Source: Orbilia blumenaviensis (lineage: Eukaryota; Ascomycota; Orbiliomycetes; Orbiliales; Orbiliaceae). Taken from it: DNA of 64,000 bases. The notes beneath the pieces were generated by a model. That model was given only the letters and a program-made list of their open reading frames with translations. It was not told the origin of the DNA and did not search any database. The stretch covers positions 3,038,001 to 3,102,000 of the forward strand of contig JAVHNS010000002.1 of NCBI GenBank assembly GCA_036872755.1. The letters are read 5' to 3'. Shown in pieces: positions 17,884-56,572 of the stretch. The position numbers and the translations under genes were made by a program. Position 1 is the stretch's first letter; the number at the start of each line of letters is the position of its first letter.

Positions 17884-20541
17884 TCATGGTACTGGCTCCG
17901 ATGCAGATGTAGCCAATTCTGTCAATTGTGCTCGTGGGTGCCCCTCGACTCCTGACTTCAGAAAGCGGGGTTGGTGGGATGCATGGTTAGCTACTCTTAG
18001 TCTTCGTTTTGCATGTCTGAGTAGTATTAGGCAGCCTGCAGGGGTCATCCCTTCTATTCTTCTGGCTTGTCCAATCGATTCTGGTTTTGTCGCCGTAAGA
18101 AGCGCTCTCTCTTCAGCAGAGAGAATACTAATTCTAGAAGCGGCCACGTTAGCGTGTCATATAAATCAGGATATCAAAATGGTGTGTAACTTACTGGTTA
18201 TAATCGATGTTAGGTGGTAGGACTAAATTCTCGTCTCGCTCAAACTCTCGGATATCATCTATCTGTTGCTCAATGTAAGGTGCATATGTACCCTCAATAT
18301 TGATCCTTTGCCTGATTCTCTCAGGGTATTTATTGAGCTCTGGAAATACCCCCAAAAATGAATTAGTATGCAGGTGATTCTTCCTGAGCAAATCAAAGGC
18401 AGTGTATTTGAAAGCATCCTGAGAAACTTCAATGCCCTTCCCAACCCATTTTGGAGCTCCAAGTGCTGATCCCTTTAATATCGACCTGACTTCGTCCATC
18501 ATTCCAGATTCAGTTTGGAAATGGTTCCATCGCTTCTCGCCTACTACACCGAGGTCTCGTCCCTTCTGAGTCAGCCGCAGATCAGCATTGTCCGATCTAG
18601 CAGACATTCGGAATTCAGATCGGGCAGTGAACATTCGGTAGGGTTCGGAGACACCCTTCGTGATCAGATCGTCAATCATAATCCCGATGTATCCATCGGA
18701 TCGAAGCAGAGTCAATTGAGGCCTGTCTTGCGACGATAGGCCAGCGTTTATGCCGGCTATTATTCCTTGCGATGCGGCTTCTTCGTATCCAGTCGTTCCA
18801 TTGATTTGTCCTGCCAGGAATAGTCCCTTGATTGCTTTCGTCTCGAGTGTAGACCGAAGACTCCGGGGATCGACATAGTCGTATTCCACACCATATCCAG
18901 CTTGGGTCATAGTAGCATTTTCTAAACCTGGAATTGTCTTCAAAAGTGCTTCCTGTACATCGGCAGGAACCGTCATGCTAATCCCATTTGGGTAGACAAT
19001 ATGGTCATCATAGCCTTCTGGTTCAAGCCAAATTATGTGTTTCTCTTTGTGAGGGAATCGCATAATCTTCGATTCCAAAGAAGGACAATATCGTGGCCCT
19101 TTGACTGTCTCACGTATGTGTATTGACTTATCCAGATTTGCCCGGAGAATCGCATGGCTTTCGGCAGTTGTGTAGGTTTGATGGCAAGCTAATTGTTTCT
19201 ATAATTCAGAATTAGCTAATCGTGTCTCATAACAGCCAGATCGAGAAGCGTTTGTACCTCCTGCTCAACTGTTAGGTTCATGTAACTAAACGGAATAGGC
19301 GGATCGTCGGCATGCTGGATCTCTAAGCGGCTGTAATCAATAGTATTCCCATCGATCCTCGGAGGTGTGCCTGTCTTCAATCGTCCTAGCTGAAATCCTG
19401 CCTCTCGTAACGAATCACTGATCCCATAAGAAGCAGCTTCCCCCATTCGCCCAGACGGAAAGACATCCAAACCTAGCTTAATGTTAGAACAAAAGAGGCA
19501 ACTATCATTCATGGTAGCCGCGCGCAAATACCAATATGGATCTCTCCGCTTAGAAACGTTCCTGTTGTTATCACTATATGGTTGGTATATATCACCTCAC
19601 CAGATTCGAGTTGGACTCCCGTAACCTGACCGTAGTGTCCGTCACTATCCCTGACGAAGCTCTCATTTTTGTCAATCACAATATCTGCGACGGAACCCTC
19701 CTTTACCGTGAGATTTGGATAGTTAGAGAGCTCTGCTTGCATGTGCTGCTTGTACAGCTTCCGATCGATTAAAGCCCTTGGACCCTGCGGTTTTCGGAAA
19801 GTTGCTCAGTACTCTTTCCATATGTAGTTTAGCTGGATCTGCCACACTGACCCAAACTGCGGGACCTTTACTCCGATTCAATACCCTAAACTGGCTGCCC
19901 GCTTTATCTGTAGCCTATCGATCAGCCACCCAGAGCTCAACAATAAGCAACTGCGGGAGAAGGAAAAAAAAAAAAAATTCGTACCAACTATTCTACCACA
20001 CAAACCGTCCAAAGCATCGATTTCTCGTATCATAATTCCCTTTCCGATGCCGCCAAAACTAGGATTGCATGAGCATACCCCAATACTGGATAGCTTCTGC
20101 GTCACAAGTGCGGTTCTAGCTCCTGCTGTTGTAAGAAGACCAGATTAGCATTGTGGAATACTGCCTCAGGGATCGCAAAAGAGAAACCAACATCGTGCAG
20201 CAGCGGCAGAGGCTTCACAGCCAGCATGGCCACCACCGACAACCACAACATCATAAAATACCCCCGTGCTAGTTTAAAATGTCCGGTTAGCATGCATTGT
20301 TCTCGCTTATTTCTAGAACAAAGTGAAAATGCGAAAAAATAAAAGAAGAAAAAATAGAATAAAATTAAAGAAAACAAAACAAAAATAAAATGCAAGCCAC
20401 GGAAAGAGGGTATGCAGATGCTCACCTATTATCAGATGCACCAGTAGCCAGGTGTCGTCTTGAGCGGAAGGTGGACCGGATAAAATCCGTTCTCCGGTTG
20501 TAAGTCCGAGCGACAGCTCGAGACAAGCGTGAAGCCAGCAT
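17884..20541 (-). CDS. MTO1: MTO1 / GidA (MnmG): mitochondrial tRNA wobble-uridine modification enzyme
   Basis: FAD-dependent enzyme that, with a TrmE/MSS1-type GTPase, makes the 5-aminomethyl-type modification on wobble U34 of mitochondrial tRNAs. The start at 20541 gives an Arg/Ser-rich presequence ([17 protein letters not shown]). After a short intron comes the dinucleotide-binding motif [20 protein letters not shown], then [21 protein letters not shown] and [12 protein letters not shown]. Later exons give [41 protein letters not shown].. with [63 protein letters not shown] and the C-terminal [15 protein letters not shown]...[23 protein letters not shown]. It ends EPVP at TGA 17884. About seven short introns are needed. 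One intron near 19970 holds a run of about 13 A. All conserved blocks are present, so the gene looks intact. Confidence 0.93.
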
Positions 20542-25917: not shown

Positions 25918-27357
25918 TTACTGACCGGGCCACTGTGACGGAGGATAGTGATGGAGGACGTCTTCATCATTCACTGCACCTGTCCTTTGCCCTGGTGCTG
26001 ACTGGGGCGAGGATGTCCAACCAACGAAATTCTCCTGAGGAAACCGACTTCGATCTTGCATTTGCTGTGGTCCAGGCTGAGGACTATGAGTGCCATACAT
26101 TGGTTGAGTCCAAGCGGTCGAAGAAGCTGAACTATAGTTGGAAGCAGCCGGGCTCGGAACCATTGGACGGTCATAGTGGGTCGCCCCGACAGTTGAATAG
26201 GTGGATCGATACGGTGCGCTCCCAGACAATGCACTCGTGTTGAGAGGAGAAGACTGAAACCCGGAATAAGGGCTGCCAGACCAACTTTGCGAAGTGATGG
26301 TTTCGGTTTGAGCGGGAAGCGAGAGTGGTGCACTGACGGGAGCACTACTTAGACTTGTCGTGTATGGTTGATAAGGTGGGTGGTACCTAGGGTTGGGGTT
26401 TCCATGGCCTATATCATAATCCTCCACCTTCAACGGATCTGTTTGATGCCCGAGTTCTCCAGGATACCCATGAGGACTGCCTGTTGGAGGGAAATAGTTG
26501 ACCTGAGATTGCATATAACTATAGTCTGATGGACCACCTGGGAAGCTACTAGGAAGGAAGGCGTGTGGATGGTGGGGATCATGTCGACTATACGACCCAA
26601 TTTTCGAAGGAGAACCATCGTCGTCCTCGTCTGTCTGCGCCTCGAACATAGCATCTGCCCCATCGTCGATAAAAGAAGGCCTCCTGGAAACATCCGACGT
26701 CGGCTGTCTGAGGGATGAAGAAATGAAAAGAGTACTACGTGGTCGGATATGATTATAAGTAGATATCTCAGTCGGCCTGGCGAGTCGATTATCCAGGACA
26801 TCCTGAGGAATATAGTAGGAAATTAAGTGGAACTGCCGGTTGTTCTCATCCTGTATACTGATTGTCTTCTTGACCAGGCCGTTTGTCTTAAAGTCGTACG
26901 AATCGATTAGGGAGCCAACTAGGGACCGATCAGAGTCACCCGGAGGGCCTGCTCTTGCTGGATCCAATCCCATTGGGTGAAACTGCTGAGGAGAGTCGTC
27001 CATATGGTCGGCATTTGGAGGCCTCCTGGACTTTGTGGTGTTCTTCCTCTGAGCTCTCTTCTTCTGTCCTGGAGGAAACGGTCGCGATAGCTCTCTATAT
27101 AGTAGGAAGTTCCCTAGTATCCTACTTGGACTCCAGTGCACTCCGTCGGTCCACCGTTTTATACCAGTATCAGTGTGTTCGAAGACAAAGACATTCCCCG
27201 ACTGGACAGCAGAAGCCCTCTCCCTATCCTGTGCTCGCCTTTGCACGGTAAACAGCTGCCTCTGCAATATAAGTTCCACAATCACCAAAGCATCCTCGTT
27301 CGTTTGACAGAAAACATTAGATATAGTTGGCTGGATCAGAGATCCGGTTGAAGACAT
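25918..27357 (-). CDS. WOPR-domain transcription factor (Gti1/Pac2 family; Wor1/Ryp1/Sge1 type)
   Basis: An intronless 479-residue DNA-binding regulator. The family controls morphological switching, pathogenicity and sporulation in fungi. The first WOPR half is at about residues 13-95: NEDALVIVELILQRQLFTV, RRAQDRERASAVQSGNVFVF, then the signature GIKRWTDGVHWSPSRILGNF and LLYRELSRPFPPGQKKRA. The last of these matches the Wor1/Ryp1/Sge1 branch better than Pac2. A basic stretch (KKRAQRKNTTKSRR) may be a nuclear signal. The second half is at about 150-200: SYDFKTNGLVKKTISI and FHLISYYIPQDVLDNRLARPTE. The remaining about 270 residues are Ser/Pro/Tyr/Gln-rich and probably disordered, as usual. TTATATAAAT at about 27457-27467 lies about 100 bases upstream and could be the core promoter. 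The gene is isolated from its neighbours by large empty regions on both sides. Confidence 0.92.
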   Translation of the reverse strand: MSSTGSLIQPTISNVFCQTNEDALVIVELILQRQLFTVQRRAQDRERASAVQSGNVFVFEHTDTGIKRWTDGVHWSPSRILGNFLLYRELSRPFPPGQKKRAQRKNTTKSRRPPNADHMDDSPQQFHPMGLDPARAGPPGDSDRSLVGSLIDSYDFKTNGLVKKTISIQDENNRQFHLISYYIPQDVLDNRLARPTEISTYNHIRPRSTLFISSSLRQPTSDVSRRPSFIDDGADAMFEAQTDEDDDGSPSKIGSYSRHDPHHPHAFLPSSFPGGPSDYSYMQSQVNYFPPTGSPHGYPGELGHQTDPLKVEDYDIGHGNPNPRYHPPYQPYTTSLSSAPVSAPLSLPAQTETITSQSWSGSPYSGFQSSPLNTSALSGSAPYRSTYSTVGATHYDRPMVPSPAASNYSSASSTAWTQPMYGTHSPQPGPQQMQDRSRFPQENFVGWTSSPQSAPGQRTGAVNDEDVLHHYPPSQWPGQ

Positions 27358-28179
27358 TTTGGGTGGTTGACGGCTACTAGCACGTCTATCGGTTTGAAGT
27401 TAGTCGACGATGGTGAAATTGGTTAAGCTGATAACTGTGAGCCTGTGGAGCGTCGAATTTATATAAGGGACTGTTACGGACTAATAGGAAGGGCCCGGTG
27501 GTGGGGAGACGTCAGTAAAGAAAGCAAGGCGACCCCCGGTTATCAACGTCACCGTCGCTGCAAAGACCATCACTCACGTTTACACCAGCAACCTATCAGG
27601 CCCGGGCACGCACTAGCACTAGCACTAACACTAGTACTGGATTCTCGACCGAGCTTAGACGGCATCTATCGTCCCTCAGGGTTAAGGATTTCGACGACTT
27701 TATCGGCTGGTCAAGCTATTTCCCCTCTTCTCACTTGCTCTTCTGCTCTTCACAAAGGCGGGACCTCTTTAGCAATACAATATACCGAAATCAACGTGGC
27801 AGCCCAAAGGTCCTTGCGCAAGGATACTCGTGGAAAACACGCACCCAAATGGACGTGCGTGCGTCTGCGGCCCTTGAGCAGATAAGAGTTAGAATCGGAT
27901 TCGGTGGCCACGCTGCTCACGGCCTTGCAACGCGATGAATATATCGCACACGAGCGTGTTCTTGCTGATTTCTAGAAACCTCGGAACAAGACCTCTGATA
28001 TCCCGATACCTGTTATCCTTGGGTAGGTGGTTGGAGCTTGAATTCCTTTTGATGATACTTTCGGTTTGACGTCTCGCTGAATCTCCCTCCTGGTGATAGA
28101 CTCGAAGTTATAGTTTCTCCTTCAGGTAGGCCTACCAAGCGAAAAAAACAGGTACTGCCCTCTAGGGAAAGGTAAGAAG

Positions 28180-53328: not shown

Positions 53329-54409
53329 AGGAATTGCTGTTCTCTGCTTTGGAGGAGGAGGAGGGGAGATATGACGGCGGGGATATATATACGATATTTA
53401 TTGTCTCCATGGGATGGAATGCAATTGGTTGGACTGAGTTTTTTTCTTCTTACGAATCTAGCCTTTTTGGTGGTAATCACAATCTATGACCGATGCAAAT
53501 CGGGGAGGGGTGATAGGGAGGGAGCGAGGAAGGAGAGACTCCCGATGCTGTATATTTTTTAAGGCGAGAAGCAAAACTTGTACATATTCCCAATTCTGTA
53601 ATATTGGAAACTCTACGACTAAAACAATCATCTTCATCAATCGAAGGGAGGGAGATATAAAAAAGGACCGTGGGAGGTTTTTTTCATTTGTCTTGAGCCT
53701 TGAAAAACTGGAAGGGTCAGATAAAATCTCTAAAAGAAAAGATTTATCCAGTCTCCCAAGCTATCTATCGAATAAAACCGAGGGTTATGGGGATCGAACA
53801 AAAAAGAACAAGAATAAAACACGTACACCTCCTCCAAGTATAAAAAACCCGCCCCCTCTCTTTTTATTTAAACTAAAGAGGGAGAGAGGGGGAGAGAAAA
53901 CGCCATGGACTCCTCCGAGAATGCCCTTCCGAAAACAAAATGCCGCGATTCCCTCTAGAACTAGAATCTATACCGGAGGATGTAAATATGGTTGCCGGCG
54001 CTGTTTAAAACCAGGCGAGTTATCTATACCAGAGGAACAGGAGTGAATATGGGCGAAAAAAAATGTGTGGAAGGCCTTGAAAAGGCGGGGAATGAGTAGG
54101 TCGGGAAAATCGTAAATGTGGGATGGGATAGAACAGACAAATAGAGGAAGAAAAAAAAGGTGCGCGTTTGAGGAATCGTAAAACAAAGAGAGAGAAGTCC
54201 GTCTCACTACAACGGACCCGGAGAGAAGGGAATGCGATCGAGTAAAAAATCTTTGTCATCCATTCCTTATTTTCAGAAGCTTTTTTTGAACGTTTCCCCT
54301 CAAAAAAGCTTCCCGCTTTTGCGTCGGCGGCAACGAAAAAGTGCTTTACACTACACCTCTCCTATTAACATAATTGAGACCGCTCGGAGAGGTATAGGTT
54401 CCACCATTG
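53329..54409. other. convergent intergenic region, no recognised gene
   Basis: About 1.1 kb of purine-rich, AT-rich sequence between PET100 and the eRF1 downstream frame. A 186-codon plus-strand frame at 53486-54046 is Lys/Arg-rich with no family signal and is not called. Confidence 0.4.
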
Positions 54410-54814
54410 TTAGCCGTATGCGAAGGTTTCCACTGGTACACTGGGAGGAATTGTAATCGCAGGGCAAGCATGATATCCGATAGCTAGATACCCACAAGGC
54501 CGTATGATACGCTCATGGGGCCTGTTTTTATCTAAACCGTCGAGAATCTTCTTCTCCTGGTCAAAACCAAGTTTCTCCGCATGCACCAAGTCGTCGTCGT
54601 TGATCCCGACTCGGACTTCCTTCATATCAGGAGTGGGCGCCTCCTTATCAGCTACAACATTCAACACATAATTCGTCGTCTTTTCCGGCGTGTCATAAGG
54701 GTTTTCTGGTTTTTTACTGATCTCCTTCATCTCCATCTCCTTGTGATCCTCGCGCGAAGCCCTCAGGCCGAGCCTGGCAGCATCCTCGCGGGGTGGGGCG
54801 AGGTCGCCCCATCG
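54410..54814 (-). other. in-frame open extension after the eRF1 UGA stop (possible readthrough region)
   Basis: Directly after the eRF1 stop codon (TGA, next base C) the same frame stays open for 134 sense codons, to TAA at 54410. It begins RWGDLAPPRED and continues through EMKEISKKPENPYDTPEKTT and DKEAPTPDMKEVRVGINDDD, ending PVETFAYG. The first about 100 codons have a soluble, charged, protein-like composition with little low complexity. An internal ATG at 54736 could also begin a separate 108-residue protein. No family is recognised. Whether it is translated is unknown. Confidence 0.45.
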
Positions 54815-56572
54815 TCAATCGTCGTAGAACCTAGGAAGAAAAAAAGTGATATTATTAGTCTCTCATCTACTCGGTTCTTTTTAAAATAGCAGAGTGGAAA
54901 TCACATACTCATCCTCATCGTCGACTTCAGCTAACTGCTCGAAGTTAACCTTGTATCGTAAAAGGGCTCCGATACCACCGAAACCCTTCACGAACTGGTT
55001 ACCTTCACTGCTTCGGTCGGAAACGAACTCAAGAGTAGCACCAAAGTCCTTGTACTTCTCAGCCAACCACTCGAGGAAAGGCTGCTGTTCGGCAACTTCC
55101 ATCTCTTGACCGGATTCCTTGTCCATGAACTTGGTACGATCCTGTTCCTGCAACTTATTAGTGTGGAGGATGATCTCATCGCCGTTAGAGGCCTTCAAAG
55201 TCCAGCGGGTGACGTCCAAGTTCTCAAAGACGATGAGGGCTGAATAACGATACGAGTGTCAGAATAAACTGCCAAAAAATTTATATATATAGTATTGATT
55301 TATATGCTTACTCTCGCAGGCACCAAGTTCAAGGGCCTTAAGGGTATCGTCGATACCGTAGCAGACTCTACCAGTATCCTGGGAAATCTCGTCGAAGTAC
55401 TTGTTGATGAGCTTCTTCTCCTGGATAAACTTGACGTTGCTCAAAGTCTCGGCGGACAATTCAATAGCTTGGTTGAAACCGTTCTCTCCACCATAGGAAA
55501 CATCGACGACTTTGATAATTTTGGCCTGGAGACGTTGGTCGAACATATCACTCTGAGCCAATTCAGACTTGAAATCAGCCGAACCGGCCAGGATGAGACC
55601 GGAGACGTTGACTTTGTCGGCAGTAATAAAGTTCTGAACGGCCAATTCGGCGACCTTACGGACGTAGTTGTGACGTTTTTCCTCACGGAGACGAGCGAAA
55701 CGCAAAGCGGACTGACCACCACGACCGTGCTTCTTGGGAAGATCGACGGCGAATTTTTGGACGACTTCACGGGTGTTTCCGCTCAGGGTACCGAAGAGGG
55801 CACCGTTACCGTCCATGACGATGAAACCGAACTTGGAGTCGCTCTCGAGGAGCTCGGAGAGAGCTTCGGTGTGGAACTTGTTGTCACAGAGGTAGAGGGA
55901 TGTGTTGATCGGCTTGAAGGGTTCGAAATCGATATTGAGCTTCCTTTCCTTTCCTTCAGAGGTGATGATTTCACCACAGTAGATAACGAGACCATTCGGC
56001 GGGACCTTGGAGTAGAGCTTGAGACGCTGTTGGGTGGAGGTAATGGCCGAGAGAACGGAAAGACGGTTGACACGAGATTTGATATTGGAGGCAGTTCCCT
56101 AGAAAAGAAAAGAAAAGAAAAAAGAGCAATTCGACCCTTGTCAGCAAATGGAAAGTTCCCCACTCTGGACATATCGATATGATGTCAATGTCAATGTCAA
56201 TGTCAATGTCTTGAAGGGCTTGGTAACCGTACGTATTCTTCAGCCAACATCTTGGCAGCTCGAGAGACCTGATCCTTGGGAGCTATATGGGGAATTGGGT
56301 TAGCCAGAAGGCCAAATGGGAATCTTGGCTTTTTTTTTTTTTTTGTGGGGCGGATGGATAGGAAAGGATGTTGTTACACACGAATGATGAGGGAGATCAT
56401 GCTGGTGCCGTTTCCTCGGGCGAGTTCGAGCCTTGAAGTCCGGAGAGTTAGCTTTTCAAACATGCCAACTATATTACTCGAGTACAAGAGAGTCCTACCT
56501 CTTGATCAGCTTCTTGATCTTCCAAATCTCGATGTTTTTCTCCGCATCATTGCCGGGTGGAGGCTGCGACAT
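54815..56572 (-). CDS. SUP45: translation termination factor eRF1
   Basis: The class I release factor that decodes all three stop codons and triggers peptide release, with eRF3. Six in-phase exons (56499-56572, 56382-56431, 56233-56282, 55312-56098, 54909-55239, 54815-54830) encode 435 residues, the normal length. Motifs: [40 protein letters not shown], the stop-decoding NIKS in [21 protein letters not shown] (YxCxxxF), and the catalytic GGQ in [20 protein letters not shown]. The C-terminal eRF3-binding domain follows, ending DVDDEDEFYDD. The last coding exon is only 16 nt. It carries FYDD and the stop UGA, followed by CGA. Intron 3 contains a (TGTCAA)n repeat. An open frame continues in phase after the stop. 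Confidence 0.95.

Follow-up and report, generated by a model that had tools for sequence, protein, structure and literature searches.

Does Orbilia blumenaviensis make the release factor eRF1 in a single form, or also in a second, longer form that continues past the stop codon of its own gene? In the window (the whole stretch of 64,000 nucleotides that was analysed), the eRF1 gene ends at a UGA behind which its reading frame stays open, and the question turns on the following features:

54815..56572, minus strand: eRF1 gene, ATG to TGA, six exons, 435 aa, C-terminus FYDD (from translation)
56572-56499, 56431-56382, 56282-56233, 56098-55312, 55239-54909 and 54830-54815, minus strand: eRF1 exons (from translation of the assembled exons)
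54831..54908, minus strand: last eRF1 intron, with a strong acceptor (TTTTTTTCTTCCTAG) and a branch-site-like ACTAAT
54815..54817, minus strand: eRF1 stop codon UGA, followed by CGA UGG (from the sequence)
54794..54811, minus strand: hairpin UGGGGCG-ACCU-CGCCCCA, 7 bp and a tetraloop, starting 3 nt after the UGA
54413..54814, minus strand: in-frame extension of 134 codons, followed by TAA at 54412-54410 (from homologues and codon score)
54774..54775, minus strand: AG2, candidate alternative 3' splice site GCCAG/GCTCGG, in phase, which with the donor 54908 would give DDEDE-LGLRASRED
54737..54772, minus strand: LGLRASREDHKE, the residues upstream of the first in-frame ATG
54413..54736, minus strand: MEMKEISKK...PVETFAYG, 108 aa, elsewhere modelled as a separate protein, both ends conserved and the middle variable

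The assembled eRF1 has 435 residues with the C-terminus EVDDEDEFYDD, its exon 4 matches the Pfam families eRF1_1, eRF1_2 and eRF1_3, and the protein gave one match at E <= 0.001 in its own 42.46-Mb genome (best candidates only). The initial annotation had reported a UGA-C followed by 134 in-phase sense codons to the TAA at 54410, and translation of the exons bore out both coordinates and phase; the range that it assigned (54410-54830) contains the extension, but it also takes in the last 13 coding bases of eRF1 and the stop. Judged from its letters, the UGA CGA with its in-frame continuation is a candidate leaky context. According to PMC4132726, a C directly 3' of UGA is especially important for UGA readthrough; the contexts named there are UGA-CUA and UGA-CGG, and the UGA-CGA of eRF1 is neither of them. 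In the literature searched, "UGA CGA" was not found coupled with readthrough.

The hairpin behind the eRF1 UGA (-13.2 kcal/mol) exceeds every other 18-nt hairpin of the window in stability, and one other distinct site was as stable among 527,286 18-mers (264 kb, both strands; window plus 200 kb of genome, 18-mers with fewer than nine G or C being counted and not folded). When the bases of 54814-54740 were shuffled as a control for local composition, 9 of 5000 shuffles put an equally stable hairpin 0-10 nt after the stop. The stability of a 130-nt fold around the stop was not exceptional (z -1.46; 15 of 200 shuffles). Two mammalian candidates with RNA structures gave little readthrough in PMC4132726.

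The length of the open frame is in itself weak evidence, because an equally long open run after the stop occurs in 5 of the 175 long frames sampled (uncurated stop-to-stop frames of at least 150 aa, taken in six frames from the window plus 200 kb of its genome). The chance of a 134-codon opening, first estimated at about 0.2%, comes to 0.06-0.15% from base composition; the empirical count is less striking. A codon model trained on 55 uncurated long frames gave the extension +0.17 bits/codon when read in the eRF1 frame. Its shuffles averaged -0.24 (sd 0.09) and 0 of 2000 attained the value of the extension, to which the openness of the frame contributes, since the score penalises stops. Synonymous codon choice across the three frames (mean log2 RSCU 0.00, 0.01 and -0.05) did not prefer the eRF1 frame, a test that is uninformative because eRF1 exon 4 itself shows no clear preference for its own frame (0.07). 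The 14 codons between the UGA and AG2 had a weak codon score (reached by 154 of 2000 shuffles), and their residues are absent from the relatives' protein models. Against the tails of other fungi these 14 residues showed no significant similarity (the score was reached by 92 of 1000 shuffles in a joint test, and by 18 to 1000 of 1000 against single tails); homology with the Geoglossum tail, promising by eye, was not significant once tested.

Is the extension conserved as a protein? With the extension as query, 11 candidates yielded three relatives in addition to the window's own protein; the whole read-through protein drew 7789 proteins, with three tail-bearing eRF1 models among the best 120 of the 7789; and a profile search added seven further relatives, giving 11 proteins in all among 4899 candidates. 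Thus at least 13 relatives stand among the matches listed, and their sources include ten species of Arthrobotrys/Orbilia, Dactylellina and Drechslerella, all of which we take to be Orbiliomycetes: A. megalospora, A. conoides, O. oligospora, O. javanica, O. ellipsospora, O. brochopaga, A. entomopaga, D. haptotyla, D. dactyloides and D. stenobrocha. The extension and profile searches of proteins (E <= 10) gave no match from any species beyond those named, and one extension-profile scan each of viral_contigs and genome_contigs matched no DNA of relatives. By extension the closest match is A. megalospora (70% identity), and the models from O. oligospora (two), O. javanica, A. megalospora and A. 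conoides are all exactly 108 aa long, like the window's, at 60-70% identity to it. In the alignment of relatives, identity to the window was found in 317 of 465 cells for extension residues 27-62, in 202 of 650 for the middle block and in 162 of 234 for the last 18 residues. The initial annotation had named a frame not conserved in relatives as one outcome that would speak against it; the extension itself proved to be conserved at the protein level, and we therefore regard it as coding. Its description as a protein-like stretch is upheld to that extent, but the stretch is not homogeneous, the first 41 nt after the stop being 76% GC and carrying the strong hairpin.

Three other readings could account for such a tail without readthrough. 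One holds that the frame is open by chance and that the similarity downstream belongs to a conserved 3'-UTR RNA and not to a protein; the frequency of equally long open runs and the failure of synonymous codon choice to mark the eRF1 frame would suit it, but amino acids are conserved in the 14 sequences and form strong blocks at either end, no net length change separates the six closest 108-aa models (the window's included), and none of the shuffles attained the codon score, which leaves this reading very improbable. Another takes the extension for a separate small gene or second cistron, translated from its own ATG (54736) into a 108-aa Orbiliomycete protein and lying in the eRF1 frame by coincidence, as a separate ORF would one time in three. 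Ten of the 13 relatives found are indeed separate protein models (nine carry the name "hypothetical protein"), eight of these ten start at the Met matching window position 54736 and one starts two residues later, and the near invariance of this Met27 among relatives is a point for a separate gene. Against it, the eRF1 stop and the ATG are only 78 nt apart, the D. haptotyla model starts 13 residues upstream of that Met, and the 12 residues before the ATG (LxLRAxREDHxE) are conserved as protein: four relatives have models that reach this far, and 37 of 48 of their residues are identical. For O. ellipsospora, moreover, the same longest contig (2584206 bases) is given for the eRF1 (P0010) and the extension model (P0130), in keeping with a tail attached to eRF1. 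A separate gene should not be conserved as protein ahead of its only start codon, and we consider this origin of the extension improbable.

The strongest challenge comes from alternative splicing, in which the donor at 54908 would sometimes be joined to AG2, skipping FYDD-UGA and giving the same tail; to this extent the proposal of autoregulatory readthrough, which the protein-level conservation of the extension supports, is weakened by an in-phase candidate for an alternative 3' splice site. AG2 lies downstream of the eRF1 stop in the right phase, has a branch-site-like ATTGAC overlapping the stop, and corresponds to the junction used in the three of 13 relatives whose gene models skip the stop by splicing and so join the tail to eRF1. 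The species are A. entomopaga, D. dactyloides and O. brochopaga ABW21, and the models P0008 (D. dactyloides), P0009 and P0061. Moreover, three eRF1 C-termini are recorded in Talaromyces marneffei (P0063, P0064 and P0067), so that the eRF1 3' end may be alternatively spliced in other fungi. The fused models are nevertheless weak evidence, because gene predictors must avoid in-frame stops and may have done so here; eight species instead have a model starting at an internal Met, and O. brochopaga has both kinds. AG2 itself lacks a pyrimidine tract, faces a strong competing acceptor 57 nt upstream and falls within the 5' arm of a predicted 5-bp stem. Nor does it appear to be conserved in all tail-bearing relatives: where AG2 needs AGN, D. 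haptotyla has Met (ATG) at the window's AGG codon (one protein-alignment position). Splicing also leaves the hairpin at the stop unexplained. We thus judge it unlikely as the source of the tail, less so than a separate gene, and incline with modest confidence to the view that nematode-trapping Orbiliomycetes have a genuine C-terminal extension of eRF1 that is under selection and is made by readthrough of a leaky UGA.

Several further identities for the extension were considered and set aside. A repeat or mobile element did not fit, because DNA and protein searches of the genome with the extension each gave a single match. A known domain was rejected, the window's extension having no Pfam match at E <= 10; for the 14 extension sequences, six families each matched one member only (best E 0.0083). 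Among solved structures there was no match at E <= 10, and structure prediction from seven extension sequences gave a mostly disordered chain of low confidence (mean pLDDT 52.6) with one helix at residues 43-55. Selenocysteine or another known RNA element was dismissed, as the three Rfam matches in 53800-54930 were all far below gathering scores and none was a SECIS. A resemblance (LNxxA) to PAM2, the PABP-binding motif, was discarded because the phenylalanine is missing from every alignment row. An intron within the extension is not favoured, the five closest full models having the same length despite substitutions.

Tails on eRF1 are found in other fungi as well. Among 116 proteins with a recognisable core, drawn from the best 120 of 7789 matches and not a random sample, the tail was at least 45 residues long in 36 and 15-44 residues long in 21, while 59 ended within 14 residues of the NFEQL motif. 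The Pezizomycotina tails (Aspergillus, Talaromyces, Geoglossum, Botryosphaeriales and others) resemble the window's in an L[TKR]A motif after the FYD end, whereas their remaining sequence is unrelated to it. Of the 17 tails chosen, 11 carry this motif, two of these 11 coming from Orbiliomycetes and six having it at the same distance from the core; in 2000 shuffles at most four tails carried it. Compared with ten tails of other fungi, the window's LGLRASREDHKE was beaten by only 1 of 2000 shuffles, and the versions of three relatives by 14 to 30. We treat the motif only as a lead, because motif and tails were chosen by eye and the Aspergillus-type tails are interrelated; on these sequences, tails at the C-terminus of eRF1 may predate the Orbiliomycetes.

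The gene models of these fungi also vary at the eRF1 3' end. The three C-termini of T. marneffei ATCC 18224 read FYDD, FYDGILC... and FYDGSEDERPEIPPADVLTARR..., with P0064 on a different contig from the other two, which suggests, as far as protein records go, that Eurotiomycetes process the 3' end of eRF1 in alternative ways. Five models (P0014, P0022, P0023, P0031 and P0043), from Venturia, Meristemomyces, Macrophomina and Botryosphaeria, combine eRF1 with a prephenate dehydratase domain (PF00800); this is probably a neighbouring gene that the predictor joined across the eRF1 stop. The D. dactyloides model of eRF1 plus tail (P0008) is labelled LOW QUALITY PROTEIN and has a long extra N-terminus.

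Under the readthrough reading, the fungus probably makes a second, longer form of eRF1. Most ribosomes would terminate at the UGA and release the 435-aa protein, while a minority, aided by the downstream hairpin, would pass the UGA-C and produce a 570-residue isoform in which the tail would presumably sit next to the eRF3-binding C-terminal domain. Because eRF1 sets how often UGA is taken as a stop, a shortage of eRF1 should shift the balance towards the long form, which would amount to negative feedback. That readthrough and not splicing joins eRF1 to its tail, that the hairpin stimulates readthrough of the UGA, and that readthrough responds to the level of eRF1 are all points that we infer. 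More tentatively, and at somewhat less than even confidence, we propose that the product of readthrough is itself selected: a tailed eRF1 isoform whose amount would report and correct eRF1 activity, with the hairpin at the UGA as a built-in stimulator and a conserved end (PVE...YG-stop) that may modulate release or, like the AMD1 tail, stall the ribosome.

If this is true, the activity of a release factor governs the proportion in which its own two forms are made, and the sequence of the long form has been kept across Arthrobotrys/Orbilia, Dactylellina and Drechslerella. The by-product of a known regulatory trick would then have a function and offer a ready sensor of termination efficiency in fungi, and the nine separate "hypothetical protein" records would be mis-modelled ends of eRF1.

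Further downstream, a scan of the minus strand for a 3'-UTR intron found no full-consensus donor after the UGA, at a cut-off that would also miss two of the five eRF1 introns. Four weak candidates have 5 of 6 donor bases (54495-54351, 54491-54351, 53826-53708 and 53453-53303); the best-looking, 53826-53708 (minus strand), lies ~1 kb after the eRF1 stop, with a GTACGT donor, TCTGACC and a CTTCCAG acceptor, and is itself weak. A perfect 11-bp inverted repeat (GAAGCTTTTTT / AAAAAAGCTTC) at 54276-54312, ~100 nt after the TAA of the extension, is a possible 3'-end element. Elsewhere in the window, the reading frames at 18191-19198 and 25918-27399 match a GIDA/MnmG tRNA-modifying enzyme and the Gti1/Pac2 family.

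How does this locus compare with known systems? In Neurospora crassa, eRF1 reportedly regulates itself by readthrough combined with nonsense-mediated decay (NMD) through a 3'-UTR intron, and plants have a similar eRF1 circuit of readthrough and NMD. The Neurospora precedent, to which the initial annotation had referred, does exist, as the title of Kurilla et al. (2020, FEBS Lett) attests. It concerns the same gene, the same leaky-stop logic and likewise a filamentous ascomycete; here, in contrast, a long conserved protein tail follows the stop and the 3'-UTR intron candidates are weak. The animal readthrough extensions of OPRL1, OPRK1, MAPK10 and AQP4, as presented in PMC4132726, share with the present case a UGA-C and a conserved in-frame coding extension, but here CGA stands in place of CUAG, a strong hairpin is found at the stop and the gene encodes a release factor. 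The readthrough C-tail of AMD1 (PMC13025110) has 127 aa against 134 here, and both are conserved up to the final stop; the AMD1 tail stalls ribosomes, whereas for the eRF1 tail what is known here is the conservation of its last residues. In the literature searched (titles and abstract beginnings, mostly without subscription papers), no conserved eRF1 tail dependent on passing the stop was found. Thus autoregulation of eRF1 by readthrough is known from Neurospora, and what would be new, if selected, is a conserved eRF1 tail encoded after the stop.
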